This document shows positions 24,105-43,886 of a stretch of 64,000 nucleotides of DNA, piece by piece; within the stretch, counting starts at the first letter, position 1, and every line of letters starts with the position of its first letter. Made by a program: the position numbers and the translations under genes. Source of the stretch: a bacterium CG_4_9_14_3_um_filter_65_15 (GTDB lineage Bacteria > Krumholzibacteriota > Krumholzibacteriia > LZORAL124-64-63); NCBI GenBank assembly GCA_002790835.1, contig PFVX01000094.1, forward strand, positions 21,775-85,774, written 5' to 3'. The notes below the pieces were generated by a model. It searched no databases. It was not told the DNA's origin and saw nothing but the letters and a program-made list of their open reading frames with translations.

Positions 24105-24106
24105 GA

Positions 24107-25066
24107 CTAGCCCGGTCCCTTGAACTTGAAGGAGAGCGATGAGGTCGGACAGACGTCCAGGCATCTCCCGCACCGGGTGCAATCGGCGCCCAGGTCCGTA
24201 TTCATCGTTTTCGCCCTGCCCCTGATCGTGGTGGCCAGGACATGGGGAACCAGACAGACCTGCCGGCAGGCTCCGTCGTTGTGGCACTGGCCGATGTTGT
24301 GGACCACCTTCAGGGGCGCAAGGACCCCGACCAGGCCGTAGGTCAGCCCGATGGGACAAGCGTAGCGGCACCAGCCGCGGCGGGAATAGAAGATTTCGAA
24401 CATCAGCAAGGCCACGACCCAGACCAGAGCCAGACCTGGCCCGTAGATCAGCGCCCGGCTGAGAATGCCCGTGGGCGAGATCGTCTCGTAGACCGTGTAT
24501 CCGGTCACGAAGGCCAACACCGCGAAAAACAGCCAGAGCACCGTCCGGCCGCGGCGGTCGAAGGTGTGGTTTTTGACCAGTTTTCGCGCCGCCAACCGCA
24601 GATGGATGATTTCCCCCAGTTCCCCCAGCAGATGATAGGGACAGACCCAGGAGCAGAACGTCCGCCCCCCCAGAGCCCACCAGAGCAGGGAAACCGAGAC
24701 GACGCCGATCAACAGGTTCAGCACCACGTGCCGGTACGCCAGCATGACCTGCAGGGCGGAATTGACGTCGGCCATGTGGAAGCCCACGAAACGCGACCCC
24801 GTCAAGGCGCCTTCAACCAGTTGGATGTCCAGATGATAGGACAGGACGAACAGCAGGTTCACCGCGATCAGCACGGCCCAGCGCCGGCGGCGCCACGTCT
24901 GGGGCCGGGAAACCATTTCCGCGCGTGCATCCCGGATCTGCTCGCGGTTCATGGGCATGGCCTGCAGCTCATGGATCTCGCGAACGCGTGGGGAAATGTC
25001 CTCGGGTGTGGGCCGCGGAGGCGTCCGGCCCAGCAAAACGGCAACCGATTGGAGCAAGGCCTTCAT
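24107..25066 (-). CDS. nosH: NapH/NosH-type polyferredoxin membrane protein
   Basis: RTFCSWVCPYHLLGELGE..., RRGWCRYACPIGLTYG, DCTRCGRCLDVCPTSSL; multiple TM helices. Confidence 0.82.
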   Translation of the reverse strand: MKALLQSVAVLLGRTPPRPTPEDISPRVREIHELQAMPMNREQIRDARAEMVSRPQTWRRRRWAVLIAVNLLFVLSYHLDIQLVEGALTGSRFVGFHMADVNSALQVMLAYRHVVLNLLIGVVSVSLLWWALGGRTFCSWVCPYHLLGELGEIIHLRLAARKLVKNHTFDRRGRTVLWLFFAVLAFVTGYTVYETISPTGILSRALIYGPGLALVWVVALLMFEIFYSRRGWCRYACPIGLTYGLVGVLAPLKVVHNIGQCHNDGACRQVCLVPHVLATTIRGRAKTMNTDLGADCTRCGRCLDVCPTSSLSFKFKGPG

Positions 25067-25893
25067 GCGCTGCCCTCCCCCGCCAATAGGTCCATCACGA
25101 TTGCCGACGGTTCGGCCGGACAGATCATTTCGCAGACGCCGCAGCCTACACAGCCGGACAGGACCTGCGGGGTGTAGGTCGCCCGCCCGCCCTTTTCGCC
25201 CGTGGGGACCAGGCGGATGGCCGGCTGGGGCGGACATTGGTTCGGATCCCCGGCCGGTGGATTCCCCGCCTCGCACTGGGAAATGCGGATCTCGATGGGG
25301 CACATCCGGACGCAAAGGTCGCACACTTCCAGGTCGTACTCATGTTCCCTGACCGGAAGGGGGTGCCAGCGGTCGATTTCCGCGTACCGCAGAACCCCCT
25401 TGAAATTCTTGCCCCGCGCCGGCCCCGCGACCCCCTGCCCACGCACGGCGAGGCAGAGGTCGGGCCTCGCCAGGACGGCCGTGGCCATCCGGGCCTGGTG
25501 GGGATAATCGAGGTCATGGGTCAAGGCCCCGGTGGGACAGGCCAGCACGCATTGCAGACCGTCGCAGGAAAAATCGCATGCCTGCCGGCGGGGGTCGATC
25601 CAGGGCGTGCCGACCCCAGCGCCGTCCTGGATGTCCGCCAGGCTGATCGCCTCCACCGGGCAGACCTGGACACATTGCCCGCACTTGATGCAGGCGGACA
25701 GGAAGTCGGCCTCCGCCAGGGCTCCCGGGGGGCGCAACCGCCGCGCCCAGCCCCGCACCACCGGAACCAGTCCCACCAGGGAAGCCCCGATCAGGCCGCC
25801 GATCAGGATCATCGTGCGCAGGAATCTCCTTCGCTTGGGGTTGTCCGGACCTGCGGACCGGGATCTCTTGGCCGATTCAGGGCACATGCTCAC
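25063..25893 (-). CDS. nosG: NapG/NosG-type ferredoxin, Tat-like N-terminus
   Basis: KRRRFLRTMILIGG; CIKCGQCVQVCPVEAI, CDGLQCVLACPTGAL, CDLCVRMCPIEI, CVGCGVCEMICP. Confidence 0.83.
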   Translation of the reverse strand: MSMCPESAKRSRSAGPDNPKRRRFLRTMILIGGLIGASLVGLVPVVRGWARRLRPPGALAEADFLSACIKCGQCVQVCPVEAISLADIQDGAGVGTPWIDPRRQACDFSCDGLQCVLACPTGALTHDLDYPHQARMATAVLARPDLCLAVRGQGVAGPARGKNFKGVLRYAEIDRWHPLPVREHEYDLEVCDLCVRMCPIEIRISQCEAGNPPAGDPNQCPPQPAIRLVPTGEKGGRATYTPQVLSGCVGCGVCEMICPAEPSAIVMDLLAGEGSA

Positions 25894-27151
25894 CCTCCGG
25901 TGACATGCTCATGCCCACTCCGCCACGGTGCATGCGGGGAGCCGAATCCCTGACCAGCAGCCGGGGCTCCGAAAGGGGCACCAATCGCTCAAGGAAGTCC
26001 AGGACCTCCAGCAGGGGCGATCCCTTGAAGAACTGGGCGTAGGGCACGTCGTGCCAAATCCGGTCGGCATAGGCATAGATCTCGTGGGGAGTGTCCCCGA
26101 CGCCGTCATGGTCCCGGTCGAATCCCTCGTAGCCGCTCCAGTAGTTGTCCCGCCACACATTGTTGTTGGCTGTGTTCCCGCCGCTGACGGCGATCTGCGT
26201 GAGGTTGCCGACAAAGCGGTTGCCCTCGAACACGTTGCCGTGCCAGTCGTTGAGAAAGCGGATCCCGATCCCGTTGTAGGCCAGGGTGTTGTTCAGGAAC
26301 CGGTTTTCGGTATCCGGTTGGAAAGGGGACAGGTCGATGTACAGACCGCTGGCGCAGTAGAGAACCTCGTTGTTCTCGATGACCAGGTCGGAAGTCTCCT
26401 TGAAGCCGATTCCGATACCGGTCGGCCCGGACGAATGCAGGATCTGGTTGTTCCGGATCACGACCCCGTCGCTGTACATCAGGAAGATTCCGACCGAATT
26501 GCCCAAGAACCGGTTCCCCGTTACCAGGTTGAATTTCGAATACATAAAATGCAGGGAGTAGCGGCTGTCGGTCTGGGTGTTGTCCCGGATCTCGTTGTCG
26601 GCCGAATACCAGACGACCATGTCCCGCACGTCATGACAGGCGTTCTGCTCGATCTTGTTGTGAAAACTGTACCACAGCCGGATGCCGTCACCCCGCTGGC
26701 CCAGTTCCATAGGCTTGGAAGAGATGGTGTTGCGGCGCACGATGTCGTGTTTGCATTGCTGCATATCGATGCCGAACAGGCAATCGTCGATGACACAGTC
26801 CTTGACTACGTTGAAGTCGCCCCGCAGCTGGATCCCGGCATCGATGTCGTTGTGGGAGGTCCCCGAATTGGTCAGGCGCAGGTTGCGAATCACCGCCCCG
26901 TCGGTATCCAGGTAAAGCACCGTACCCCGGCCGCCGCCGTCGATGACCACGCGGCCTTCGCCGTCCAGGGTCAGGGGGTGATCGATGACGACCGGGCCTT
27001 CATAGACGCCCGGAGGGGGGACCAGCCTTCCGTTGTCCGGGGTGGCATCCACCAGGAGTTGCAGCGGCGTCGGCTGCGCCCCCGCTGCCCGGGTCGCCGG
27101 GAGGCACAGCACCAGCGCGGTCATCGCCAGGTGCAGGCTAGTTGTCTTCAT
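25877..27151 (-). CDS. nosD: Nitrous oxide reductase maturation protein NosD (parallel beta-helix)
   Basis: GVYEGPVVIDHPLTLDGEGRVVIDGGGRGTVL..., repeated NxI/N-rich beta-helix turns, ...DRDHDGVGDTPHEIYAYADRIWHDVPYAQFFKGSPLLEVLDFLERL. Confidence 0.92.
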   Translation of the reverse strand: MKTTSLHLAMTALVLCLPATRAAGAQPTPLQLLVDATPDNGRLVPPPGVYEGPVVIDHPLTLDGEGRVVIDGGGRGTVLYLDTDGAVIRNLRLTNSGTSHNDIDAGIQLRGDFNVVKDCVIDDCLFGIDMQQCKHDIVRRNTISSKPMELGQRGDGIRLWYSFHNKIEQNACHDVRDMVVWYSADNEIRDNTQTDSRYSLHFMYSKFNLVTGNRFLGNSVGIFLMYSDGVVIRNNQILHSSGPTGIGIGFKETSDLVIENNEVLYCASGLYIDLSPFQPDTENRFLNNTLAYNGIGIRFLNDWHGNVFEGNRFVGNLTQIAVSGGNTANNNVWRDNYWSGYEGFDRDHDGVGDTPHEIYAYADRIWHDVPYAQFFKGSPLLEVLDFLERLVPLSEPRLLVRDSAPRMHRGGVGMSMSPEGEHVP

Positions 27152-28319
27152 CGTCCTTGATCCGTTCCCTGCGCAGCAACATGGCCGCCAGCAGGAGAAG
27201 GGAGAAGAGGATCATCAGGCCGAATCCGTATTCGGGATAGGAATTGGTGGTGAACTGCGCAACCTTTCCCTGGCCGAAGACCGTGGGCATGAAAGGCTTC
27301 AACGTGAAGGCGCCCATCTCGTTCATGTGGTGCCCGTACCACCAGAGCCAGACGGAATACTCGATCACGAAGAACAGCGGCAGCCCCGCCGGCGCAAGCG
27401 TCAGCAGTTTTTCGGCGGCGCCGCCGGGCCTGCGGGTGATCCCGACCAGCACGATCATGGCCACGATGATTCCCCAGAAGAGGATCGTCCCCTCCTTGGC
27501 TATGCCGGCCACCATGGGCTCCAGCACCTCCGGATCACGGAAATAGCGGCCCAGGTTTCGCCGGTAGTGCCAGGGAATGAATTGGGAACCGCTGCCCTGC
27601 CATTGTTCGTCCCCGATGCGGTCGGTGTCCTGGTTGAAGGCGTCGCGGAAATAGCGCAGACTCTGTTCCTTGGCGCCGCCGTCAACGGCCGCCGGAGCCG
27701 CCTGAGCCTCACCGCCCTCTGCGGCTTTGCTCTCGGCCAGGGATGCTTTCAGCCGGGCGACCAGGGCCTCGCCGGAGGAAAGCTCCCGGTCGGGGGTTTC
27801 GTCGGCCAGGCTTTCCCCCGAATCCATGACCCGGCCCGCGAGATACCGCGCACTCTGGTAGCGGAGTCCGTCCGGCCCCAGGAAGGCCAGCCCCATCCAG
27901 ACGGCGACGGCCACAAATCCCGCGCTCATGATCGACATGCGCAGGACCGCGCACCTTACCAGGAAGCCCAGCAGCATGACCCCGACCATGGCCACCAGGA
28001 ACAGGGAGAAGAACACCTCCACCGCCCCCCCCGAAGCGATGGGATACATGCCCACATAGTGGTTGATGGTATCCATCTCGTGGACGCAGTCCAGGGCATC
28101 GCCCTCTTGGTCGGCGGATCCGGCAGCCTGCCCGCAGCCGCTGAATACCCCATTGAGATGGAACTCGATCCGCACGCCGTCGGGAAAAACCTCCGGCGGA
28201 TAGTTGGGGGCCTCCAGGGATACCCACCAGATGGGAGCGTTGTAGATGGGCCACAGCAGCCCGATAGCCGCCAGGACCAGGAGGCTGCTGATGAACGATC
28301 TTCGCCGCGCTGTGGTCAT
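27138..28319 (-). CDS. nosB: NosB-like integral membrane protein of clade II nos clusters
   Basis: TM helices; YNAPIWWVSLEAPNYPPEVFPDGVRIEFHLNGVF, INHYVGMYPIASGG, YGHHMNEMGAFTLKPFMPTVFGQGKVAQFTT; sits upstream of nosD as in the Wolinella nosZ-nosB-nosD order. Confidence 0.65.
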   Translation of the reverse strand: MTTARRRSFISSLLVLAAIGLLWPIYNAPIWWVSLEAPNYPPEVFPDGVRIEFHLNGVFSGCGQAAGSADQEGDALDCVHEMDTINHYVGMYPIASGGAVEVFFSLFLVAMVGVMLLGFLVRCAVLRMSIMSAGFVAVAVWMGLAFLGPDGLRYQSARYLAGRVMDSGESLADETPDRELSSGEALVARLKASLAESKAAEGGEAQAAPAAVDGGAKEQSLRYFRDAFNQDTDRIGDEQWQGSGSQFIPWHYRRNLGRYFRDPEVLEPMVAGIAKEGTILFWGIIVAMIVLVGITRRPGGAAEKLLTLAPAGLPLFFVIEYSVWLWWYGHHMNEMGAFTLKPFMPTVFGQGKVAQFTTNSYPEYGFGLMILFSLLLLAAMLLRRERIKDDEDN

Positions 28320-28387: not shown

Positions 28388-29101
28388 TCAGTCGAAATCG
28401 GGGTTGCGCCAATCCTTCGAGGGCGCCAGGTCTTCCTTGGGGACGGGAATGCGCGAGACGTAATTGATGACCGCCTGCATGTCGGTGTCGCTGAAGTTCT
28501 TGATCTGTTTGATCATGTCGGGGTTGGCGTTGCGCCGCTTTCCGTCGCGAATCCACTCGAACTGGCGCAACATGTACGCATAGTGCTGGCCCTGCAGGCG
28601 GGGATAGTACTTCTCCTCGTTGCCCTCGGCCGTCTCGCCGTGGCACTGCACGCAATTGGCCTTGTACAGTTCCTGGCCGTGGGCGAACTCGGGCGTGCCG
28701 TCATCCCACAAACCCTTCCCGTTGTCGGGGTTCATGGGCAGGCTCGCGATGTAGGCCGAGACATCGGCAAGGGACTGGGGGCCGCCGATGGACTGGGGCA
28801 ACGCGAAAGGGTACATGGTGGGGTTGTCCCGGTTCAGGGCGCGGATGTCGGCCAGCTGCTTGATGATGACATCACGGAATTGGCCGGCCAGTTGCGGAAA
28901 AGTCCCCTCCTGGGTCCCCCAGCCTTCGGTCAGGTGGCAGGCGGCGCAGACCTCGTAGACGTCCCGCCCGTTTTCCAGATCCGGCGTGAGGCTGAGGGCC
29001 TCATCCTTCTCTCCGCCTTTGTCGTTCCAGGCCGGCGACTCGACCGTCATGCCTGCGGCAAGAGCGGCGATCACCAGCACCATCATCATTTGCTTCTTCA
29101 T
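28388..29101 (-). CDS. Periplasmic diheme cytochrome c
   Basis: Signal peptide MKKQMMMVLVIAALAAGM; CAACH and CVQCH. Confidence 0.85.
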   Translation of the reverse strand: MKKQMMMVLVIAALAAGMTVESPAWNDKGGEKDEALSLTPDLENGRDVYEVCAACHLTEGWGTQEGTFPQLAGQFRDVIIKQLADIRALNRDNPTMYPFALPQSIGGPQSLADVSAYIASLPMNPDNGKGLWDDGTPEFAHGQELYKANCVQCHGETAEGNEEKYYPRLQGQHYAYMLRQFEWIRDGKRRNANPDMIKQIKNFSDTDMQAVINYVSRIPVPKEDLAPSKDWRNPDFD

Positions 29102-29162
29102 GTCGTTCTCCTTCGCGGATAAACCACGCTCGCGGTTTCGCGGACGTGACGTTGACAGCAGT

Positions 29163-29873
29163 CTACTTCGGCAGGGACGAGACATAATCGGCCAGCTGGG
29201 TCATCTGTTCGTCGTCGACCAGATGCATGACTCCCTGCATGCCGAGAACGGCCATGCTGTTGGCCCTCGCCCCGCTTTTGATATCGCGCATCTGCCTCAG
29301 GATGTATTCCCGGGGTAACCCCGCGATCCGGGGATAATCCGGCAGGATCGGCGTTTTGCCGTCCTTGCCGTGACAGGCGGTGCAGGTCTTGGTCTTGAAC
29401 AGCTTGGCTCCGGGCGATTCCGGATCGGGTTGGCCGCCGATCGGGGCGCCACCGCCCAATTCGTTGGCGATGAAATCCGCCAGGATGATGAATTCGTCCT
29501 CGGTGACATCCTTGATGACCGCCTGCATCTGGGGTGCGTAGCCGCTGGCGCGATTCCCGCTTTGGATGTCCTTCATCTGCCGCAGTGCATAATCCCGCCC
29601 TTGGCGCGCCAGAATGGGATAATCGGGCAGCAACGGATGGATCCCGTCATCCCCGTGGCAAGTGTTGCACGTCTTTTCCCTGAACAGCCGGGCGCCCGCG
29701 GACTCCTGGATCACATCCGCGCCTGTTGCGGCCAGAACGGATTCCCCGTGTGTTCCCCTGATCTTGGCCAGACGATCCTCACGGTCGTTGCAGGAGCAGG
29801 CGGCCAGCCAGGCCAAAGACAGGATGAGCAAGGCAAGAAACGGAGTTTTCGGGGTTCGTTTCATGATCTTCAT
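29163..29873 (-). CDS. Diheme cytochrome c lipoprotein
   Basis: MKIMKRTPKTPFLALLILSLAWLAACSC; CNTCH and CTACH in tandem homologous domains. Confidence 0.83.
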   Translation of the reverse strand: MKIMKRTPKTPFLALLILSLAWLAACSCNDREDRLAKIRGTHGESVLAATGADVIQESAGARLFREKTCNTCHGDDGIHPLLPDYPILARQGRDYALRQMKDIQSGNRASGYAPQMQAVIKDVTEDEFIILADFIANELGGGAPIGGQPDPESPGAKLFKTKTCTACHGKDGKTPILPDYPRIAGLPREYILRQMRDIKSGARANSMAVLGMQGVMHLVDDEQMTQLADYVSSLPK

Positions 29874-29964
29874 CCTCGGGTTCGCAAGCCGCAATTTCGG
29901 CACGTTGTGGCCCCGCCGGGAGCGCCCCCGGCGGGGTCAGGTTAAACTGATTCATTTCCGCCCG

Positions 29965-32256
29965 CTACTTGATCTTCTTGGCGCCGCTCTCCTCGAGGAA
30001 GGTCTTGGCGCGCAGACCCAGGTCGGCGGTTTTGACCTGATATTGCCACCACTGGTTGGCCCAGAGCATGGCGTTCTGCCAGTCGTTCCCGGTGGCCGCG
30101 GTCTCGGCCTTCTGCTTGGCCTCGGCGGCGAAACCCAGCTGGTCGGTGGCGTCTTCCACCAGGGCGAGAACCGTGGGGAATTCCTGATAGTTATGACTGG
30201 TGATGAAAGCCACCACCTGGTCGATGACTTCCTGGGTGGCCTCGTTGGTGGCGACCTGGGTCAGGTAGTCCTCCTTGCTGTAGGCCACGCCTTGCTGCAT
30301 CTCGGCTGTTACGGCCTGGTAGCCCTTGGGCTGGACGAGCAGGTACCCCTCCATCTCCAGGTGCAGGGCGGAACAGAATTCGGTGCAGTAGTAGGGATAG
30401 ACGCCCGCCTTGTCGGCGACGAAGGAGGCGGAGGCCGTCTTTCCCGGCTCGACGGAGAGCTGGATGTTCTGGCCGGAGATGGAGAAGCCGTGCACCTCGT
30501 CCTCGGCGCGCTCCAGGTTGGTCAGGTGGATCAAGACCTTGTCGCCCTCGGTCACCTCGATGATCTCGGGGGTGATGTGGGAGCGGATAAGCGTCCCGAA
30601 CACCTCAACCTTGCCCGGTTGGCGATCGGTCCGTTCACGGCCGGCGCGGGCCCTGAACTCCGACCGCTTCTCCTGCCTGCTGTCCCAGCCGCTCTTGTAG
30701 CGCACAAGGGGATCCAGCTTGTCCATCTTGATGGACACCGCGTAGTGGGGCTCTCCCAGGGGCAGCGGCATGTCGTAGAGCAGGGTCATCGTAGGATGAC
30801 TGATGTCGATGAGCTGGTGGTTCTGGGGATGCAACGGCCCGACCGGATCGAAACGATCGATGGCCAGTTTGTTCAGGGCCACAAGGAACTTCCCGTCGGG
30901 GTTCTTGGTGTCGCCCTCCATGGTCATCAGGTGGCCGACATTATAGTGGATGGGCAGGGTATCGAGGACCTTACCGGTCTTGTAGTTCCACTTGGTGATC
31001 TGCGAGTCCACGTAGATCGATGTGTAGCAGACGCCGTCCTCGGAGTCGAACTGGGTGTGCAGCGGACCGAGGCCGACGCTGACCGACTTGTCCAGGGCCG
31101 CCTCCAACGAGATGATGGGGATGCCGTAGGCGTCGTAGCCCTCGAAATTCCGCCCGTCGATGGCCGCCTTGATCTTGACGAAGCTGTAGACCCAGGCGTG
31201 GCTGTCGAGCTTTCCGGCCACGATGATGGAGGCGCCGTCCGGGGACACATCACAACCGTGGGGGCTCTTCGGCTCCGGGATCAGGAAAAGCAGATCCTCG
31301 GCGATCGCCTGCGCTATGCTGATCAGGTAGTGACCCTTGACTTTCCCCACCTTGCCGGCGGCCACCAGTTCCGCAGCCTTTACCCAGTTGGTCACGTGCA
31401 TGAAGTCCGTGTCCTTGGACGAGCAACCCGCCTCGAAGGGCGGCCGACCACGCTCGATGCCGCCCACATAACGCTCGGAACAGAACGAGTTGGTGAAGCC
31501 CCAACCGTAGCTCGGGCCCTTGCCAGCATCGGAGAGATCCTGGCTGTAGGGAGGTAATTCGAAAGTGAATGTCTGCTCAGGGTCGAGACGTCCAGCCTCG
31601 CGGTCGAACTTCCAGTAGGTCAAGCCTCCGCGGTACTTCTCGTTGAACTCCTCCAGGGGGGCGAATTCGCCGTCCAGGGGCGCGGGGTATTGGCTCCCCT
31701 CCATGACATACTCGGTGTTGGGGGTGGCGAAGCAACCACCGTGGTCGGACTGGAAGAAGGGGTTGGGGACGATCTGTTTGGTCTCGAAATCCTTAAGGTC
31801 GATCACCGCCACCCGGGGATTGGCCTTGTCGTTGATGAACAGGAACTTCCCGTCGTAGTCCCCGTCGGTCTCCGAAATGGCGGGATGATGGGAATCACCG
31901 AAGGTGATGTCCTTGCCGTCGATCCGGCCTCCGGCCAGCACCGCCTTGGACTCGTCGTCGAAACCGTAACCCTGCCAGGGTTCGGGAGTGAAGACGCCGA
32001 TGTATTTGAGGATCCGCATGGAGGGAATGCCGTACACGATCACCTGCCCGCTCTGGCCGCCGGAGCTGAAGCAGAGGTATTCGTCACGCCCACCGGTGGG
32101 AATGTAGGTCTTGGCCGCCGCGAGGACGTCCTTCTCCGTCAGGCCCCTCTCCTGCATCACTTCCTGCAGGGTCTGGGTCCAGGCTGCACTGGAGCCGGCA
32201 AGAGTGCAAATCGCCGTTAACAGCAATACGGCTTTCAGTCGGTTGATCAGCCTCAT
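29965..32256 (-). CDS. nosZ: Nitrous oxide reductase, Sec-type (clade II)
   Basis: Sec signal peptide without twin arginine; DSHHPAISETDGDYDGKFLFINDKANPRVAVID, SDHGGCFATPNTEY, HGCDVSPDG, CuA motif CTEFCSALHLEM. Confidence 0.95.
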   Translation of the reverse strand: MRLINRLKAVLLLTAICTLAGSSAAWTQTLQEVMQERGLTEKDVLAAAKTYIPTGGRDEYLCFSSGGQSGQVIVYGIPSMRILKYIGVFTPEPWQGYGFDDESKAVLAGGRIDGKDITFGDSHHPAISETDGDYDGKFLFINDKANPRVAVIDLKDFETKQIVPNPFFQSDHGGCFATPNTEYVMEGSQYPAPLDGEFAPLEEFNEKYRGGLTYWKFDREAGRLDPEQTFTFELPPYSQDLSDAGKGPSYGWGFTNSFCSERYVGGIERGRPPFEAGCSSKDTDFMHVTNWVKAAELVAAGKVGKVKGHYLISIAQAIAEDLLFLIPEPKSPHGCDVSPDGASIIVAGKLDSHAWVYSFVKIKAAIDGRNFEGYDAYGIPIISLEAALDKSVSVGLGPLHTQFDSEDGVCYTSIYVDSQITKWNYKTGKVLDTLPIHYNVGHLMTMEGDTKNPDGKFLVALNKLAIDRFDPVGPLHPQNHQLIDISHPTMTLLYDMPLPLGEPHYAVSIKMDKLDPLVRYKSGWDSRQEKRSEFRARAGRERTDRQPGKVEVFGTLIRSHITPEIIEVTEGDKVLIHLTNLERAEDEVHGFSISGQNIQLSVEPGKTASASFVADKAGVYPYYCTEFCSALHLEMEGYLLVQPKGYQAVTAEMQQGVAYSKEDYLTQVATNEATQEVIDQVVAFITSHNYQEFPTVLALVEDATDQLGFAAEAKQKAETAATGNDWQNAMLWANQWWQYQVKTADLGLRAKTFLEESGAKKIK

Positions 32257-32431: not shown

Positions 32432-33163
32432 TCAGTCGTCGACCACCGAAAGGTAGGCCAGGAGGTCTGCCAAATCCGGGTCACTCAGCCCCTGCAGGGG
32501 TTTTCCCATCTTCGGGTCCTTGCGCTTCCCGGTCCGGAACGCGGCGACCTGTCGGGCAAGGTATTCCGAATACTGACCGGCCAGCTGAGGGTTGGAGCCT
32601 TGTCCGGCGCCCTCCCGTCCGTGGCATTTCCTGCACTCGCGGTGGTAGATCGCCTCTCCCGCCGCGGGGTCACCGTCGTACTGCGGTATGTTCAGGACCC
32701 GCTTGGCGAGCATCAGTTTGGCGTAGGCGTCCAGGTCCGGATCCACCGGGGGCATGCGGGTGAACAGTTCGAGACCGGTCAGATAAGTGGAAATGTTCAG
32801 GATGTCGGCTTCCGGAAGCTCCCGGTCGTTGGCGTAGGGAGCCATGGCCATGTTCTCCCACTCCCCGCTCTTGAAGGCCCGCAGCTGATTCGCGATGTAC
32901 TTGACGGGCAAACCAGCAATCCGGGGGTATTCGCCGCCACCGCCGCCCTGTCCGAATTCTCCGTGGCACCCCGCGCAAAGCTCCATGATTTCCTTCCCGA
33001 TGTCCGCGTCGTAGACATACTCCGTGGCTTCGTCCCCGGAAACCGCAAACCCGGAGGAAGCCGCCGTGGCCAGCAGCAGCGTCAGGATCCCGGAAGCGGC
33101 AACCAGCCCCAACCACCGAAAAGGGGAGCTCCGCGCACTCTCGATGTTGTAGCCATGCGGCAT
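32432..33163 (-). CDS. Membrane-anchored/secreted diheme cytochrome c
   Basis: Signal/TM FRWLGLVAASGILTLLLATAASSG; CAGCH and CRKCH. Confidence 0.85.
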   Translation of the reverse strand: MPHGYNIESARSSPFRWLGLVAASGILTLLLATAASSGFAVSGDEATEYVYDADIGKEIMELCAGCHGEFGQGGGGGEYPRIAGLPVKYIANQLRAFKSGEWENMAMAPYANDRELPEADILNISTYLTGLELFTRMPPVDPDLDAYAKLMLAKRVLNIPQYDGDPAAGEAIYHRECRKCHGREGAGQGSNPQLAGQYSEYLARQVAAFRTGKRKDPKMGKPLQGLSDPDLADLLAYLSVVDD

Positions 33164-33193: not shown

Positions 33194-34750
33194 CTAGCCG
33201 TCGAAATTGCCCTCGGGCGGAGGAGAGGGAACCGTCCACTCCAGGGTCACGGCCCCCCACGGATTGACCTCGGCGGCATCACCGCTCCAGATGGACGCAA
33301 GAAGATTGCCTGCGGTGACCCCAAGGCCGGAATACACAATCAACCAACCCAGGCCCGAAACCTGGGCTTGGGCCAGGAATCCGGACACAAGACCGATCGC
33401 ATCCTCCGGCACTCCCTGGGTGCCCATGATCACGCGAGGCACGAGGGCCAAATTGAGGCCCACGATGTACAGGACCGCCCCCAGGTTGGCAACGCCTGCA
33501 ACAAAGTTGCGGCCCACCATCTTCGGCCACCAGAAATGCAGGCCCGCCAGCAGGGCCGCCATCACCCCGCCCCACAGGATATAATCCAGCTGTGCCGAAG
33601 CGAACAGGGAGGTCCCCAGATAGGAGCCCAGAGACGGACTGGCCAGCAGCATCCCCATCCCCACGGCGATTCCGGCATGCAGCAGGAAACCGAGTGCAAA
33701 AAATGCAGCGGGAGACAGGGTGATACTTCCCCGGTACAAAGTTGAAAGCCAGGTGAAACCAATCAGGGCCGCGGGGATGAGCACCAGCAGGCTGAAAAAA
33801 CTGAAGACCAGGCTGGATCCCGGGTCGAGACCCCGGCCGATGAGTGCAACCCCCGAACTGGCCACAGCCAGGCCGGCCAGGGCAATCATGGATCCGACCA
33901 GGAGCCGATAACCGGGGGAAGTCCTGCGGGAGATCCCGCTGATAAGGTCGCTGAGGATGCCCACTCCGGGTATCAGGGCGAAATACGCCACCGGGCGGAT
34001 GGAGAACCAGAAATAGGAACGCCAGACCATGGGGTCGGCCTCCCAGCCGAACAGCCCCGTGGTGGTGATGCGGCTGGCGGTCATGAACAGGGCCACAGCG
34101 GCGAATACCGCCCCGGAAAAGATCAGAAGGTAGCCGTAGACATACATGCCCCATACCGTCAGCGGCATGTCGAAAAATCCCATTTCCTGTCTGCGACCGT
34201 GATGCACGGTGACCACGAAATTGATTCCCGTCAACATCCAGCTCATGGCCATGAAGAAGAGCCCGACCAGCAGCACCTCGAAAGCTCCCGGCTCCAGCAT
34301 GGCCAAGCGCGAATCCATGGTCCATCCGGTGCCGATGGGGCAGATGATCTGCGAGGCCAGAAGCAACAGCAGCCCGATGACATGGAAGTGCAAGCTGAGG
34401 CGGGAAAGAACCGGCAGGGCCATGTTGCGGGCGCCCAGTTGCAAGGGCAACAGGAAGAACCCCAGGACGCCCGGCAGGACCGGTACCATCCAGCCCATGA
34501 CCTGGATCAGGCGTTGGTAGGTAATGACCTGGGTCAGCATCCGCCGTTCGAAATCGCCCCCACCCAGTGCCATCATCAGGGGCAGCATGGCAAGGATCAT
34601 GGCCATCACGAAGGCTGCAGCGGTCCAGGCCAGATACATGAGGGCGACCCGCTTGTGGTCCGTGGACCGGAACCACCCCATTACCCCGCCGGGTCCGCCC
34701 AGATAACTGTCGCGCAGTGCATCCACCGCCGAATGACTGGTGTTATCCAT
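33194..34750 (-). CDS. Heme-copper oxidase subunit I-like protein lacking canonical heme and CuB ligands
   Basis: STDHKRVALMYL, FLLPLQLGARNMALP, ALIPGVGILSDLI, STLYRGSITLSPAAFFALGF, GGVMAALLAGLHFWWPKMVGR match the COX1 scaffold; ligand positions are substituted (see findings). Confidence 0.85.
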   Translation of the reverse strand: MDNTSHSAVDALRDSYLGGPGGVMGWFRSTDHKRVALMYLAWTAAAFVMAMILAMLPLMMALGGGDFERRMLTQVITYQRLIQVMGWMVPVLPGVLGFFLLPLQLGARNMALPVLSRLSLHFHVIGLLLLLASQIICPIGTGWTMDSRLAMLEPGAFEVLLVGLFFMAMSWMLTGINFVVTVHHGRRQEMGFFDMPLTVWGMYVYGYLLIFSGAVFAAVALFMTASRITTTGLFGWEADPMVWRSYFWFSIRPVAYFALIPGVGILSDLISGISRRTSPGYRLLVGSMIALAGLAVASSGVALIGRGLDPGSSLVFSFFSLLVLIPAALIGFTWLSTLYRGSITLSPAAFFALGFLLHAGIAVGMGMLLASPSLGSYLGTSLFASAQLDYILWGGVMAALLAGLHFWWPKMVGRNFVAGVANLGAVLYIVGLNLALVPRVIMGTQGVPEDAIGLVSGFLAQAQVSGLGWLIVYSGLGVTAGNLLASIWSGDAAEVNPWGAVTLEWTVPSPPPEGNFDG

Positions 34751-34752
34751 TT

Positions 34753-35733
34753 CTACTTGTCCTCCTGGGGGCCGGCTTCGCCATGGTCGGAAAGGCTTTC
34801 CAGGTACGCGACGATGGCCTCGATTTTCCTGTCGTCCAGCTTGCCATCGAAGGTAGGCATGACGCCCTGGAAGCCCTCGACTACGAATGCGTTGGGAGAA
34901 AGGACCGACTCCTTGACGTAACCCGCATCGACTTTTCGGGTCCGACCGTCGGTGGAGACCGCTTCATGACCGTACAGATTCTTGAAGGACGGACCCACGA
35001 GCTTGGAGCCGTCCAGGGAATGGCAGGCCTTGCACCCCTGGGCGACATAGAGAAATTCGCCGACCTCGGCCATGGTGCGTCCGGCGAAGATGTCCGATGC
35101 CGCTGCCAGCCAGGAGGCAAAATCCGGCTCGCTCAGGGCAATCATCGCCACGGGCAGGCTGTCATAACGGACACTGCTGAAAGTCCCGGAATAGATGGGA
35201 AAGGTCCCCGGTGTGATGGGTTCGAACCAGGTCTCGGTCGTGCGGCCGGGCAGCACCGCCTGCTGAACCCGCATGGCGGGAATAGCCAACTGCCGGCTGA
35301 TGTCTTCGCTGGTCAACGCAAGGAGGACCGGCTTGCCCGTAGGCACGCGGAGAGTATCAGCGACATAACCGCCGGGATAGGCGAAATCCCAGGCGCCCTC
35401 GCGGGTGGTGATATCGATGGCATAGGAATCATACGGGGGAACGGTGCTGTCCACGAATTCGCCCAGGCCCGCCATGAAGGCGAAACCGCCCAACGCAATC
35501 GTCCCCAGCATCCAGGCGCCCAGCAGGCACTTGTTCAAGCCGCCGGCGGGCACTTGTTCCGGGTCACCGCTACGGCGCCGAAATGCGAACATGAAAGTGA
35601 CGGCCAAGCCCACAGTCAGGATCAGGACGATTAGGCCCACGAAATAAAGGTCATAGAAAACCATGTCCACGCCGGGGGCAAAGGTCGAAGCCCATTCCGG
35701 GAACCAGGCTGAGAGATTGGCGCTACCCATCAA
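34753..35733 (-). CDS. Cytochrome oxidase subunit II-like protein fused to cytochrome c, lacking CuA ligands
   Basis: Two N-terminal TM helices, cupredoxin-like AMRVQQAVLPGRTTETWFEPITPGTFPIYSGTFSS, C-terminal GCKACHSLDGSKLVGPSFKNLYG...GVMPTFDGKL. Confidence 0.85.
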   Translation of the reverse strand: MMGSANLSAWFPEWASTFAPGVDMVFYDLYFVGLIVLILTVGLAVTFMFAFRRRSGDPEQVPAGGLNKCLLGAWMLGTIALGGFAFMAGLGEFVDSTVPPYDSYAIDITTREGAWDFAYPGGYVADTLRVPTGKPVLLALTSEDISRQLAIPAMRVQQAVLPGRTTETWFEPITPGTFPIYSGTFSSVRYDSLPVAMIALSEPDFASWLAAASDIFAGRTMAEVGEFLYVAQGCKACHSLDGSKLVGPSFKNLYGHEAVSTDGRTRKVDAGYVKESVLSPNAFVVEGFQGVMPTFDGKLDDRKIEAIVAYLESLSDHGEAGPQEDK

Positions 35734-35801: not shown

Positions 35802-36110
35802 CTATCTTGAATTCTCGGCCACAACCCTACGCATGGCGTCCTCGATGGGCAGGCAGGCCTTGGTGCGCTGCTCATCCAGCCAGCGCGGCTGTTCTTCCAG
35901 GATGCTCTGCTGCTCGGCCAGGGCCGCCTGCAGGGGTTCGTTCTCGGGAACGAGGAGCTTGGTATCCCTCACCTGGTTTTGCGACGCCAGAAACCCTCCC
36001 TGCAGGAACAGGGACAGGGCGTAGAGAAAGATGATCAGGGCCAGCCCGCACAGCAGTACCGCCGGCGTGTTGAAGCCCGATTTTCCGCGTGCACTCTCTT
36101 GCATGGTCAT
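35802..36110 (-). CDS. Small single-TM periplasmic protein of the ACIII/oxidase operon
   Basis: TPAVLLCGLALIIFLYALSLFLQGGF then LAEQQSILEEQPRWLDEQRTKACLPIEDAMRRVVAE. Confidence 0.6.
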   Translation of the reverse strand: MTMQESARGKSGFNTPAVLLCGLALIIFLYALSLFLQGGFLASQNQVRDTKLLVPENEPLQAALAEQQSILEEQPRWLDEQRTKACLPIEDAMRRVVAENSR

Positions 36111-36159: not shown

Positions 36160-37365
<1,206 letters not shown>

Positions 37366-37408: not shown

Positions 37409-38071
37409 TCACCTTGTGCCCAAGTTCTCCAGGGCGGCGCGGTCGTCGGCGGGCACGTCCGCGAGACTCGCGTTGCGGGACAGCTGCAGAGCGCGCACGT
37501 ACGCGACGATGGCCCAGCGGTCCCGCGGGTCGATCTGGTTCTTGTACGACGGCATGTTGCGGATGCCGTGGGTGATCGTGTTGTAGATGTGCCCCACCGG
37601 ACGGTCCACCACGCTCTGGCCGACCAGGTCGCTGGGCGGGGTCCAGGTGCCTTCGGCCAGGGCCGTGGCGCGGATATTCACCACGCCGTTGCCGTTGCCC
37701 GATAGGCCGTGGCAGGGCGCACAGAAGATCTGGAAGCGTTCCTGTCCGCGGTGCATCAGGTCCTGGTCAACGGTGACGGGAAACTCGGTCACGAAGGTCG
37801 TGTCGCCCTCGACGCGGCCCCGGAAGAAGGGGTCGCCCGCGCGCAGGTCGCCGCGGGCCACGGTGCCGTCCACCGGGGTGCGCATGGAGCGGCCGTCGGC
37901 GAAGAAATCGTCCGCGGACTGGGCCTTGTAGTAGTACTGGTTGTCCATGTCGTAGACGACCTGGATGCGGGGCTGCCCCTTGACGGAATGGCGCGCCCGG
38001 TAGATGCATCCGATGGGCACCAGGGTCAGGGCCACCAGCACCAGTCCGATGGAGATCAACGGTCGGGGCAT
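37409..38071 (-). CDS. actE: Alternative complex III monoheme cytochrome c, ActE
   Basis: MRTPVDGTVARGDL...GQERFQIFCAPCHGLSGNGNG...DRPVGHIYNTITHGIRNMPSYKNQIDPRDRWAIVAYVRALQ. Confidence 0.87.
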   Translation of the reverse strand: MPRPLISIGLVLVALTLVPIGCIYRARHSVKGQPRIQVVYDMDNQYYYKAQSADDFFADGRSMRTPVDGTVARGDLRAGDPFFRGRVEGDTTFVTEFPVTVDQDLMHRGQERFQIFCAPCHGLSGNGNGVVNIRATALAEGTWTPPSDLVGQSVVDRPVGHIYNTITHGIRNMPSYKNQIDPRDRWAIVAYVRALQLSRNASLADVPADDRAALENLGTR

Positions 38072-38074
38072 GCC

Positions 38075-38626
38075 TCAGTCCTCCGCGCTTTCATGGATTT
38101 CCTCAACCTCGGAACCGCCGAGGGAGGCCAAAAACTCACGCGTCTTCTCCAGCTTGAAGGCCGGGTCGCGCGCTTCGATCACGATGAAGAAGCGGTCCTG
38201 TGTGGCTCTGCGGAACCGCTTGCTGGTCAGCAGGGGGTTGTACCACCGCGGCATGCCGTTCAGGCCCCACATGCCGAAAAAGGCCGCAAAGGCGCTGAAC
38301 AGCACCGTCAATTCGAACATGATGGGGATGTTGGCCGGCAGCCCGAACAGCGGCTTGCCCGAGATCACGAAGGGGTAATCCACCGCGTTCATCCACCACT
38401 GCATCAGGGTGGCCGCGGCCAGGCCGATCAGGCCGCCGCCCAGGATGATGAAGGGCAGGCGCGTGCCCCGGATCCCCATGAAGTCGTCCATGCCGTGCAC
38501 CGGGAACGGCGAGTGCACGTCCCACTTCTTGAATCCCGCGTCGCGGACCCGCATCGCGGCCGCGGCCAGCAGGCTGGGGCTCTCGAACTCGATCAGCAGG
38601 CCGTAGAGGTCTCCCTGTTTCATCAC
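38075..38626 (-). CDS. actD: Alternative complex III subunit ActD (DUF3341)
   Basis: [60 protein letters not shown]. Confidence 0.87.
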
Positions 38627-40083
38627 TTGTGCCCCTTCCTGCGAACGTGCTCGGGGATGTCGCCGTGGTAATCCCCCACGATGTGCCGCTCACCGCTGTG
38701 CGGGTCGGCAATGGGCATCACGGTCTTGACCTCGGCCATGGCGACCATGGGCAGGAAGCGGATGAACAGCAGCACCAGCGTGAAGAACAGCCCCCAGCTG
38801 CCCAGGAAGGTCAGGATGTCCACGATGGTGGGCCGGTAGTAGGCCCAGCTCGAGGGCAGGAAGTCACGACTCAGCGAGGAAACCGTGATCACGAAACGCT
38901 CGAACCACATGCCGATGTTCACGAAGATGTACAGCACCCACATCACCGGGATCGAGGTGCGCAGCTTCTTGAACCAGAACAGCTGCGGCGTGACCACGTT
39001 GCAGGTCACCATGATCCAATAGGCCCACGCGTAGGGGCCGAAGGCGCGGTTGACGAAGGCGAAGCCCTCGGTGGGGTTGCCGCCGTACCAGGCGATGAAG
39101 AACTCGGTGGCGTAGGCGAACCCGACCATGCTGCCGGTGGCCAGGATGATCTTGTTCATGTTCTCCAGGTGATGCAGGGAGATGATCTCCTTGAGCCCGA
39201 AGAACTGCCGCGCCGGAATGAGGATCGTGCCCACCATGGCGAAGCCGCTGAACACGGCGCCGGCCACGAAGTAGGGCGGGAAGATCGTGGTGTGCCAGCC
39301 GGGCAGCTGCGCGGTGGCGAAGTCGAAGGAAACCACCGAGTGCACCGACAGCACCAGGGGCGTGGCCAGCCCGGCCAGGATCAGGTAGGCCTTTTCGTAG
39401 CGGTGCCAGTGCCGGTGGCTGCCCACCCAGCCCAGCGAGAGCACGCCGTAGATGATCTGTTGCAGCCTGCCCTTGGCGCGGTCGCGCAGGGTGGCCAGAT
39501 CCGGCACCATGCCCGTGTACCAGAACAGCAGCGAGACCGTGGCGTAGGTGCCCACGGCGAACACGTCCCACAGCAGCGGGCTGCGGAAGTTGGGCCACAT
39601 GTTCTGGAAGTTGGGAATCGGGAACAGCCACCACACGACCCACACGCGGCCCACGTGGATGCCGGGAAAGATCCCGGCGCAGATCACCGCGAAGATGGTC
39701 ATGGCCTCGGCGAAGCGGTTGATGGACGTGCGCCACTTCTGCCGCAGCAGGAACAGGATGGCCGAGATCAGCGTGCCGGCGTGGCCGATACCCACCCAGA
39801 ACACGAAGTTCACGATGGCCCAGCCCCAACCCACCGGGTTGTTCAGGCCCCAGACCCCCACGCCCGTGAGGAACAGGTAGCCGATCATCAGGAAGAGGAT
39901 CCCCGTCAGGCCGGCGGTGATGGTGAACATCACGTACCAGGCCAGCGGCGTCTTCCGCTCCAGGACGATGTCCGAGACCGTCTCGGTGATCGACGTGAAG
40001 TCGTTGCCCCCGAGGATCAACTCCTGGGTGTAACGCGGGTCGTCGCTGGTGTTGTTCAGATAGTCGGTAGCCGACGATTTCAT
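38623..40083 (-). CDS. actC: Alternative complex III subunit ActC (NrfD/PsrC-like)
   Basis: [64 protein letters not shown]; ten-TM NrfD-type protein. Confidence 0.9.
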
Positions 40084-40100: not shown

Positions 40101-43100
40101 CTAGCCGTGTTCGCTGCCGGGGTGCCCGGTGTGGGCGGCGATCTGGGGATTCGGATTCCGGATGCGGGCCATGTAGGAGGTCCGCGGCTTGATGTTGAGG
40201 TAGGCCAGCAGGTCGTACGACCGCGGCACCTTGCGCAGCTTGGCGACGCGGCTCTCCGGATCGTTCAGGTCGCCGAAGACGATGGCGTCGGTGGGACACG
40301 TCTGGGCGCATGCGGGGGTGATGTCCCCGTCGCGGATCTTGCGGTTCCCGTCGACCCGGGCGGCCACCCGCGCCTTCTCGATGCGCTGCACGCAGTAGGT
40401 GCATTTCTCCATGACCCCGCGTGCCCGCACCGTCACGTCGGGATTGAGCACCAGCCGCTGGGTCGCGGTCAGGTCCTCGAAATTGTTGAACCAGTTGAAT
40501 CGCCGCACCTTGTAGGGGCAGTTGTTCGAGCAGTAGCGCGTGCCCACGCAGCGGTTGTAGACCATGGTGTTGAGACCCTCGCTGCTGTGCATGGTCGCAG
40601 CCACCGGGCAGACCTCTTCGCAGGGGGCCAGCTCGCACTGGGCGCAGGCCACCGGCTGCTGGGCGCACTCGGGATCCTCGGCGTCGCCCAGGAAATACCG
40701 GTCCAGCCGGATCCAGGACATCTCACGCCCGCGGGCCACCTCGTCCTTGCCGACCACCGCGATGTTGTTCTCGGCCTGGCAACCGATGATGCAGGCGTTG
40801 CAGCCGTTGCAGGCGTTCAGGTCGACGCTCATGCCCCACTTGTAGCCGTTGTAGTCCCATTCCTTCCACAGCGATTCCAGGGGCGGATGGTGGATGCCCA
40901 GGTGGTCCACGAATTCGGGATGCTCGCGGTACTCCTCAAGGTCGCCCTGGCGCACCAGGCCGGGCACGCGCTTCTGGATCTCCTCGGCGCCCACGGTGTC
41001 CATGGCGAAGTGATCCTGGGTGGTGGCCAGCTTGTAGGTCGCGCCGGTTTTGGTCAGCTTCAGGCCCGCGCCGCCGTGCAGCGCGCCGCTGGTGCGCAGG
41101 GTGTAGGCGTTGAAGCCCGAGCCCTGGCCCACCCGCCCCGAGTCGGGCTTGCCGTAGCCCAGCATCACCGAGACCGAGTAGCGCGCCTGGCCGGGCAGCA
41201 CGTAGACCGGAATCGCCTGCTTGCGGCCGGCGAATTCCAGGTCCACCAGGTCGCCGTGGCCCACGCCCAGCTCCACCGCGGTGGCGGGGCTCAGCAGGGC
41301 GGCGTTATCCCAGGTCAGCTTGGTCATGAAGTCGGGCATCTCCTGCAGCCAGGCGTTGTCGCAGAAGCGACCGTCGAACACGGACTGGTCGTGGTGGATG
41401 CTCAGTTCGAGACTCTGCGCCGACAGATCGCCCGGCGCCCGGGGCGCGGCGAGGGGCGTGCCGGTCAGGGCCAGGGGCTCGCCCCGTTTGGCCGATCCCT
41501 GCAGCACGCCGTCGTGGATGAACCGTCGCCACTTCTTCTCGAAGCGGTCGTTGCCCTCGGGCGCGGACTTCCCGGCGCCGCTGATTCGCGCGAAGGAATC
41601 GCGGGCGACGGCGTAGGCGTTGCGCGGGGTCTCGTCGACCAGAACGGACAGCACCTCGGTAACGGTCTTGCCGCCGAAGAGCGGCCGGATCAGGGGCTGC
41701 ACCGCCAGGTAGGATCCGTCCCAGCCCATGGCGTCGCCCCAACCCTCGAGATAATGGGCCCGGGGCAGGTGCCACTGGCACAGGCGCGAGGTGGCGTCAT
41801 CGTTCAGCGAAACGTGGATGCGGGTGCCCGCCTTCTGCATGGCGGCGCCGAAACCCAGATCCGCCGGCGCGTCGTAGGCCGGGTTCCCGCCCAGGATCAG
41901 CAGGGTATCCACGGCACCGGACTTCAGGTCCTTGGTCAGGTCGGCAATGTCGCCCAGCTTGGCCATGTCGAACGGCTGGTAGGAAACGGTCTGGCCCACG
42001 TTGCCCAGGGCCTGGTTCAGCAGGTGGATCAGCGCGTGGGTCTCGGGGCTCTGGCGCATACCCGCTACGAGCAGGCTCGCACCCCGGTTGGCCATCAGAT
42101 CCTTGGCCAGAGCGGCGATATGCTCGCCGCCGGCGGAATGCCCGCGCCAACCCTGCAGGTCGGAGCGGGAAACGCCCGCGCCCATGGGCAAGGGCAGCCC
42201 CTCACCCAGCACCAGTTCGGCCGCCAGCGCCCACACGGCCGCGGGGATGTGGCTCGCCGGAGTCGGGAAGCGGTGATCGGCCATGCCGCCGGTGATGGTG
42301 AAGGTGTTCTCGAAGACGTACAGCCGGTTCATGTGGCCGGACTCGGGCCGGCGCCCCTTGGCGAAACGGCGGCTGTTGCGCAGGGACGAGGCGTGGTCCT
42401 GCAGGAAGTTGGCGTCGAAATCGACGATGACCTCGGCCTTGTCCACGGCCAGCTGGCTACGGGCCGGAGTGCCGAAGGCCAACCGGGCGCCCTGCATCTC
42501 GTTGATGCGGCACACCGGCTCGTGATAGTACAGCTTCGCCCCGCGATACTGCTGCCCGATGCGGCCCATGAGGTCCCACACCGCCGGCGAGGTGGTCATC
42601 TCGGTCAGGACGGCCAGGCCGCCCCCACGCAGGCGGGGAAAGTGCCCGACGGCGAACGTCCCGAAATCATCCCAGGTCGCCTTGGCGCCGGATGACGAAT
42701 CACCGAACTGATTACGTCGCAAAATGTTCTGGCTGCGGTCGGGGTTATAGAGGCCCAGCACGCTGGCCTGGGCGAAAACGTTGGTCGCCCCGCCGCTCAA
42801 GGGAACTTCGGGGTTCCCGTCGATCTTGATGGGACGCCCGTCGTAGCTGGTGGCCAGCACGGGAAGGGCCACCGGCCCCATCTCGAAGGTCGTGGCGAAC
42901 TGCCGCGGCGTGCCCGGGTCGGTACCCTCGGGCCGCTGGGCGTAGGGCATGATCTTTTCCTCGGGCCAGCGGCAACCGGCCAGGGTCGCCAGGGCCGCCG
43001 AGGCGCCCATGATCTGCAGGAAACGCCGGCGGGACATATCGTCGGGAGCCTCGATGCCGCCGGGAAACTCTTGCTCCTGGAGACGGCTGAACTCGCTGCC

Positions 43101-43157
43101 GGCGGCCAGCTCGTCGAGGCTGCGCCAGAAATCCCTTTTTTGGCTGCTGTCGGACAT
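40101..43157 (-). CDS. actB: Alternative complex III subunit ActB (molybdopterin-oxidoreductase-like/FeS fusion, Tat-variant)
   Basis: DDMSRRRFLQIMGASAALATLAGC; C-terminal CNGCNACIIGCQAENN, CAQCELAPCEEVCP, CVGTRYCSNNCPYKVRRFNW, CTYCVQRI. Confidence 0.92.
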   Translation of the reverse strand: MSDSSQKRDFWRSLDELAAGSEFSRLQEQEFPGGIEAPDDMSRRRFLQIMGASAALATLAGCRWPEEKIMPYAQRPEGTDPGTPRQFATTFEMGPVALPVLATSYDGRPIKIDGNPEVPLSGGATNVFAQASVLGLYNPDRSQNILRRNQFGDSSSGAKATWDDFGTFAVGHFPRLRGGGLAVLTEMTTSPAVWDLMGRIGQQYRGAKLYYHEPVCRINEMQGARLAFGTPARSQLAVDKAEVIVDFDANFLQDHASSLRNSRRFAKGRRPESGHMNRLYVFENTFTITGGMADHRFPTPASHIPAAVWALAAELVLGEGLPLPMGAGVSRSDLQGWRGHSAGGEHIAALAKDLMANRGASLLVAGMRQSPETHALIHLLNQALGNVGQTVSYQPFDMAKLGDIADLTKDLKSGAVDTLLILGGNPAYDAPADLGFGAAMQKAGTRIHVSLNDDATSRLCQWHLPRAHYLEGWGDAMGWDGSYLAVQPLIRPLFGGKTVTEVLSVLVDETPRNAYAVARDSFARISGAGKSAPEGNDRFEKKWRRFIHDGVLQGSAKRGEPLALTGTPLAAPRAPGDLSAQSLELSIHHDQSVFDGRFCDNAWLQEMPDFMTKLTWDNAALLSPATAVELGVGHGDLVDLEFAGRKQAIPVYVLPGQARYSVSVMLGYGKPDSGRVGQGSGFNAYTLRTSGALHGGAGLKLTKTGATYKLATTQDHFAMDTVGAEEIQKRVPGLVRQGDLEEYREHPEFVDHLGIHHPPLESLWKEWDYNGYKWGMSVDLNACNGCNACIIGCQAENNIAVVGKDEVARGREMSWIRLDRYFLGDAEDPECAQQPVACAQCELAPCEEVCPVAATMHSSEGLNTMVYNRCVGTRYCSNNCPYKVRRFNWFNNFEDLTATQRLVLNPDVTVRARGVMEKCTYCVQRIEKARVAARVDGNRKIRDGDITPACAQTCPTDAIVFGDLNDPESRVAKLRKVPRSYDLLAYLNIKPRTSYMARIRNPNPQIAAHTGHPGSEHG

Positions 43158-43169
43158 ACGGGACCTTTC

Positions 43170-43886
43170 CTAGCGATGGCAAGTGGCGCAATCGGTGGAC
43201 GGGGCAATGCCGTGTTCTTTCATCAGCCGCGCGCCCAGGTCGGCGGGATCTTCGCCGTTGGGGGGCTGCCAGGTCATATCCGTCACGAATTCCTTGGGCC
43301 GCAGATTGGGCTCGGGGTTGCGATGGCAGCCCAGGCACCAGCCCATGGTCAGAGGTTTGTCCTGGGCAACGACTTCCATGCGGTCGATGCGGCCGTGACA
43401 ACTGACGCAACCCACCCCGGACTGGATATGCCCGGCGTGATTGAAGTACACGAAATCCGGCAGGTCGTGGACCCGGACCCAGGGGATGGGTTCACCGGTC
43501 TCCGCGCTCTTGCGCACCAGTTCCAGCTTGGGGCTCTCGGTGCGCACGTGGCTGTGGCAGTTCATGCAGGTCGAAGTGGGCGGGATGTTCGCCTTGGCCG
43601 TGGTTTCCACGCTGGTGTGGCAATAACGGCAATCGATGCCCATCGCGCCCACGTGCAGGGCATGGCTGTAGGACACCGGCTGGGTCGGCGCGTAGCCCAT
43701 GGCCGAAGTCTCGGGGGAAAACACCCCGTAGACCAGAACGACAGCGTAAACCAGGCCACCGAGAGCGGCGACGGCGGAAATCTCCCGCAGGCGATTGGTC
43801 CAGCGGGGAAAAACGAACTTGTCGGTGGTTGTCGTCCCGGAACCGGAAGCGGTTCCATCCTGGAATTCGTTATCGTTCCGAGTCAA
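43170..43886 (-). CDS. actA: Alternative complex III pentaheme cytochrome ActA
   Basis: Five CxxCH: CRYCH, CMNCH, CVSCH, CLGCH, CATCH; SHALHVGAMGIDCRYCHTSVETTAKANIPPTSTCMNCH. Confidence 0.9.
   Translation of the reverse strand: MTRNDNEFQDGTASGSGTTTTDKFVFPRWTNRLREISAVAALGGLVYAVVLVYGVFSPETSAMGYAPTQPVSYSHALHVGAMGIDCRYCHTSVETTAKANIPPTSTCMNCHSHVRTESPKLELVRKSAETGEPIPWVRVHDLPDFVYFNHAGHIQSGVGCVSCHGRIDRMEVVAQDKPLTMGWCLGCHRNPEPNLRPKEFVTDMTWQPPNGEDPADLGARLMKEHGIAPSTDCATCHR

Follow-up and report, generated by a model that had tools for sequence, protein, structure and literature searches.

What can a pair of caa3-type oxidase subunits do when one of them has lost its CuA site and kept its fused cytochrome c, and its neighbour has lost the ligands for haem and copper? 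This question is raised by CoxB* (subunit II) and CoxA* (subunit I), which are encoded side by side in the 64,000-nucleotide stretch of bacterial DNA analysed here (the window). A first-pass annotation, made from the DNA letters, had suggested that the pair was repurposed as a membrane platform presenting a cytochrome c, and we analysed the two proteins, their relatives and the surrounding genes with this suggestion in mind.

CoxB* lacks the CuA site and retains haem c

CoxB* is the minus-strand open reading frame at 34753-35733. The conserved start codon, an ATG, lies at 35730, one codon inside the frame, and gives a protein of 325 amino acids; residues are numbered here from the TTG, not from this ATG. 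CoxB* matched the Pfam families COX2 and Cytochrom_C, each above the curated cut-off. When aligned by phmmer with subunit II of the T. thermophilus caa3 oxidase (2YEV), it was gap-free through both CuA segments, ltsedisRqlaip pairing with itskdviHsfwvp and SgTfSsvrYdsL with the Cys/Glu/Cys/His/Met motif. All six CuA positions were changed (H147R, C182S, E184T, C186S, H190Y and M193L), so that the CuA columns read RSTSYL in the window against HCECHM in canonical subunits II, and the CuA of a caa3 oxidase is absent. A MAFFT alignment with the canonical protein of locus L005 gave identical CuA columns, and no CuA site could be recovered by alignment. The Glu ligand of CuA binds through its backbone carbonyl, so that E184T by itself is no proof of loss. 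Among the relatives of CoxB*, the first CuA His and the Met are often retained; none of these relatives has either Cys or the Glu. AlphaFold2 models, built from two-sequence alignments (window and L005), had mean pLDDT values of 45 and 41 and were dropped.

The haem c ligands are all present, namely the CxxCH motif at 234-238 (C234, C237 and H238, in GCKACH) and the axial M292 (in GVMPTF). Motif and axial Met are conserved across the clade, as expected of the fused haem c of a caa3 oxidase, and the haem c domain is the best-conserved part of CoxB* (0.74 vs 0.63 for the cupredoxin domain). Its best match among solved structures was the haem c domain of the R. marinus caa3 oxidase, 1W2L. The first-pass annotation was therefore right on all three counts concerning this subunit: the entire CuA site is gone, the flanking fold residues of the cupredoxin domain are retained, and the C-terminal cytochrome c is intact.

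CoxA* has lost the haem and CuB histidines

CoxA* is a full-length subunit I (COX1, 191.7 bits) with 12 hydrophobic segments, as in a caa3 oxidase. In P. denitrificans-style numbering, its ligand changes are H94Q, H276R, H325V, H326A, H411Q and H413D, and the active-site Tyr position remains Tyr. The ligand columns thus read QRYVAQD in the window against the canonical HHYHHHH; the His ligands of haem a, haem a3 and CuB are all replaced, and subunit I is as ligand-less as had been claimed.

The CuA Cys pair and two of the CuB His are missing from every member of the Cox* group. The low-spin haem pair (positions H94 and H413) is still present in many of them, and loci L033, L035, L040, L122-L125, L130 and L163 additionally keep the a3 His (H94, H411 and H413); in the CoxA* clade that contains the window, the low-spin pair is lost as well. 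This distribution shows an apparently stepwise loss of ligands, with CuA and CuB first, a3 next and the low-spin haem last.

Cox* is a conserved lineage under purifying selection

A profile search covering 80 genomes of one phylum found the degenerate subunit II to be widespread in one family and present in one genome of another. Both CuA Cys were missing in all 29 CoxB* sequences read from related genomes, and because 29 sequences share this loss, it is not a chance event. Both subunits were degenerate in 24 of the 24 loci where both could be read, both were intact in all 16 canonical loci included for comparison, and no mixed locus, with one subunit degenerate and the other intact, occurred among these 24 and 16. 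Parallel loss in adjacent subunits, which had been proposed from the window, is therefore repeated across genomes, a CuA-less subunit II going with a ligand-less subunit I in every readable pair.

The CoxA* clade is monophyletic (bootstrap 100, SH-aLRT 100) and requires a single state change; its stem branch is long (1.65 changes per column). Nei-Gojobori dN/dS between neighbours was about 0.06-0.38 for CoxA* and CoxB*, rough values with many dS above 1, and similar to those of the adjoining ACIII genes. Cox* is under purifying selection and is the product of neither chance nor decay. A pseudogene was rejected by dN/dS together with conservation.

Canonical ACIII-caa3 loci of the same phylum contain, in this order, ActF, a small ActG-like protein, Sco, CoxB, CoxA and subunit III- and IV-like proteins, and the ActG-like position, held by orf102 in the window, is occupied there by a protein of similar size. 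From the oxidase part of such loci, Cox* loci retain only the ActG-like protein, CoxB* and CoxA*. Beside Cox* there is no Sco and no subunit III or IV, though all are present in the canonical loci compared; the absence of these subunits and of the CuA chaperone Sco fits a lost oxidase function. A scan of genome contigs returned one canonical relative as its sole match, and a plasmid search returned relatives of less than 60% identity among the matches listed, the top ones mostly annotated as ordinary coxB.

The Cox* pair lies between ACIII and nitrous-oxide reductase genes

CoxB* and CoxA* belong to one minus-strand array that runs ActA-B-C-D-E-F, orf102, CoxB*, CoxA*, cyt243, NosZ, nos genes and MHC (Table 1). 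The ActA-ActF set is complete, which identifies an alternative complex III (ACIII), and its ActB is the only full ActB of the source genome. NosZ has an intact CuA motif (CTEFCSALHLEM) and is of the Sec-dependent (clade II) type. The same genome also encodes a separate cytochrome bc and an intact caa3 oxidase (L055). Clade II nos clusters contain NosGH and cytochromes c. The window is like them in having NosZ, NosD, NosFY, NapGH-like proteins and dihaem cytochromes, but unlike them in that its nos genes and ACIII-CoxB*-CoxA* form a single array.

Table 1. Features of the ACIII-Cox*-nos array, in minus-strand order.
Feature	Coordinates	Strand	Description	Evidence or remark
ActA	43170..43886	minus	multihaem c	
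ActB	40101..43157	minus		solved ACIII ActB chains, E 1e-139 to 1e-250
ActC	38623..40083	minus	NrfD-like, quinol site	
ActD	38075..38626	minus		
ActE	37409..38071	minus	monohaem c	closest solved relative R. marinus ActE (6f0k_E, 3e-44)
ActF	36160..37365	minus		position and conservation in ACIII loci
orf102	35802..36110	minus	small ActG-like membrane protein	between ActF and CoxB*
CoxB*	34753..35730	minus	caa3-type subunit II, 2 TM helices	CuA-less cupredoxin and fused haem c
CoxA*	33194..34750	minus	haem-copper oxidase subunit I, 12 TM helices	all haem/CuB His lost
cyt243	32432..33163	minus	dihaem cytochrome c	between CoxA* and NosZ; window/g8 type
NosZ	29965..32256	minus	Sec-dependent nitrous-oxide reductase	TIGR04246 846.6 bits, cut-off 625
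cyt246	29163..29903	minus	dihaem cytochrome c, nos cluster	
cyt265	28388..29185	minus	dihaem cytochrome c, nos cluster	start probably further in
orf393	27138..28319	minus	nos-cluster membrane protein	position conserved; no Pfam or NCBIfam match
NosD	25877..27151	minus		PF05048 134.9 bits
NapG/NosG-like	25063..25893	minus	ferredoxin	
NapH/NosH-like	24107..25324	minus	quinol-dehydrogenase protein	TIGR02163 above cut-off
ABC ATPase	23220..24680	minus	NosF position	start probably further in
ABC-2 permease	21912..22757	minus	NosY position	
MHC	20299..21831	minus	membrane-anchored NapC/NirT-like multihaem cytochrome	6 CxxCH and one CxxxCH

Different redox proteins adjoin Cox* in related genomes

Window-type NosZ (75-83% identical) was found in 15 of the 29 Cox* genomes and in none of the 51 others (Fisher p 1e-8, uncorrected for kinship; 0.004 within the family). 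In 12 genomes CoxA* is immediately followed by this NosZ, or by cyt243 and then NosZ, and in G032 the genes of the NosZ/Cox* array are present in permuted order. Because window-type NosZ is missing from roughly half of the Cox* genomes, NosZ is not the general purpose of Cox*. Among the NosZ-less Cox* loci, a NapC-like multihaem cytochrome adjoins CoxA* in L026, L027, L030, L031, L034 and L124 and lies farther away in L033 and L039; the closest relatives of the window's MHC are those that adjoin CoxA* in such loci. In G007 (L028 427-9180), the genes after CoxA* encode NarGHJ together with a dihaem c and a pentahaem protein.

Another type of NosZ, which is 41-55% identical and whose nos cluster is simpler, was seen in L142, L144, L145 and L148-L152, in genomes both with and without Cox*. 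G003, of the window's genus (L156 and L080), has fragments of window-type NosZ together with cyt243; its known Cox* pair is MHC-linked and lies on another contig. Two stretches carry Cox* without ACIII, in G022 (L037 1-4167) and G062 (L130 7388-10029).

Cox* and ACIII have different histories

In the tree of ActC-ActF and orf102, the window grouped with its own genus, G001-G003 (100/100). In the CoxA* and CoxB* trees it was placed, with 97/92 and 97/91 support, among NosZ-linked pairs from genus g8, and a grouping of the window CoxA* with its own genus was rejected (AU p 4.4e-7). G010 has two Cox* pairs, of which the MHC-linked one groups with the MHC-linked pair of G019 and the second (L008) with NosZ-linked pairs. 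The L008 sequence probably represents the N-terminal part of a CoxA* whose remainder lies ahead of cyt243-NosZ on another contig; the two contigs do not overlap and cover CoxA* residues 1-360 and 365-516. Because the ACIII of the window is native to its genus but its CoxB*A* is of the g8 type, Cox* seems, as far as these trees tell, to follow the acceptor and not ACIII.

A proposed role as an adaptor of ACIII

Every comparative test that we ran supports the suggested membrane platform, since 24 of 24 pairs are doubly degenerate, the lineage has a single origin and is under purifying selection, the TM helices are kept (12 and 2) and haem c is conserved; the role of this platform we infer. Its place would be downstream of ACIII and upstream of NosZ or another reductase. 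On balance, we favour a reading in which a catalytically dead caa3 oxidase acts as an exchangeable adaptor, passing electrons from ACIII through the CoxB* haem c to anaerobic reductases. This reading builds on ligand loss, conservation, gene context and module exchange, all seen at the sequence level, and it predicts docking on ACIII, the direction of electron flow and an energy gain from ACIII in N2O respiration.

CoxB*-CoxA* would derive from a caa3 oxidase that is normally docked on ACIII and would have lost catalysis to become a fixed adaptor. Menaquinol would be oxidised by ACIII and the electrons would move via ActB, ActA and ActE; CoxA*-CoxB* would retain docking within the membrane, and ActE would pass the electron to the haem c of CoxB*. 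Because CuA is gone, no electron should enter CoxA*, and we infer an exit to cyt243 or NosZ: in the window, the CoxB* haem c would reduce the dihaem cyt243 and/or the CuA of NosZ, which leads to N2O reduction, and in the relatives it would reduce a multihaem NapC-like cytochrome or a NarGH-type reductase. O2 would be handled by the cytochrome bc and intact caa3 oxidase of the genome. We suggest more tentatively that Cox* may be a non-catalytic branch of the haem-copper oxidase superfamily in which a swap of the CoxB*A* pair would redirect a given ACIII to another terminal reductase, be it NosZ, a nitrate reductase, a multihaem cytochrome or perhaps cbb3. Several observations count against an adaptor between ACIII and NosZ: NosZ might be supplied independently of ACIII by the NapG/NapH-like proteins and the two dihaem cytochromes of the nos cluster, window-type NosZ is not general among Cox* genomes, and Cox* has no adjoining ACIII on its contig in G062 and G022.

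The presence of this NosGH-like set and of the two dihaem cytochromes within the same array also agrees with a structural role only, where CoxA*-CoxB* stabilise ACIII, the NosGH-like dehydrogenase and the dihaem cytochromes feed NosZ, and haem c lies off the main path. The retention of Cox* in genomes without window-type NosZ points the same way. We regard a structural role as unlikely, however, because haem c and its ligands are the part of CoxB* that is conserved best, and because the Cox* lineage tracks the acceptor and not ACIII, which would be unexpected for a pure stabiliser of ACIII. The loci that retain the H94, H411 and H413 positions would agree instead with a redox or sensing role of CoxA* via its remaining haem, at least in the relatives that keep these His. 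This is less likely still, because the window-type clade, without the low-spin pair, keeps the same NosZ gene order, suggesting that the CoxA* haem is dispensable for the shared role. A decaying caa3 relic that hitch-hikes in the ACIII operon, with which the fast evolution along the stem branch would agree, is largely refuted and highly improbable, given the intact frames in more than 25 genomes, a dN/dS well below 1, the conserved haem c and a loss that happened once, in the distant past, after which the pair was long retained.

Comparison of the proposed adaptor with known systems

ActB and QrcB are molybdoenzyme-like subunits without the Mo cofactor. ActB is thus a precedent, in the same complex, for a dead redox-enzyme fold used as a scaffold, though its enzyme superfamily differs from that of Cox*. 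In the ACIII-caa3 supercomplex of R. marinus, ActE was proposed to be the direct donor to the caa3 haem c domain (PMC5928083). The window resembles that system in gene order and homology: the ACIII genes are followed by coxB-coxA, haem c is fused and ActE is closest to that of R. marinus. It differs in lacking the ligands of CuA, haem a, haem a3 and CuB, in the missing Sco and subunits III and IV, and in the NosZ or other reductases that follow Cox*. The third CcoP haem of the N. gonorrhoeae cbb3 oxidase feeds the nitrite reductase AniA (PMC8552683), an example of an oxidase-subunit haem c that branches electrons to a denitrification enzyme, as the CoxB* haem c would do; that oxidase remains active, unlike Cox*, which is predicted to be catalytically dead. 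In C. jejuni, respiration with Nap and Tor depends on Qcr, which adds energy conservation (PMC6195509); this path has Qcr instead of ACIII and no dead oxidase adaptor. If the adaptor reading holds, N2O respiration gains a route through the energy-conserving ACIII, and by analogy with Qcr this route would add energy conservation relative to the NosGH-type route. N2O is a greenhouse gas, and a link between ACIII and NosZ would bear on the energy gain of N2O sinks.

The enzymes known from the haem-copper oxidase superfamily reduce O2 or NO. A Cox* lineage that is conserved and under selection but stripped of its cofactors would represent a new role for the haem-copper oxidase fold. The literature that we searched, which had most subscription journals outside it, held no earlier report of a link between ACIII and denitrification or of a ligand-less oxidase.

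G025 (L049 6842-16188) carries a very diverged CoxB*/CoxA* pair after ACIII, which may be a second case of a degenerate Cox pair; its position in the tree is unreliable (branch 5.66). The CuA positions of this pair read LGAHEL and its haem c is kept, and a P-type ATPase and a cbb3 oxidase operon lie downstream.
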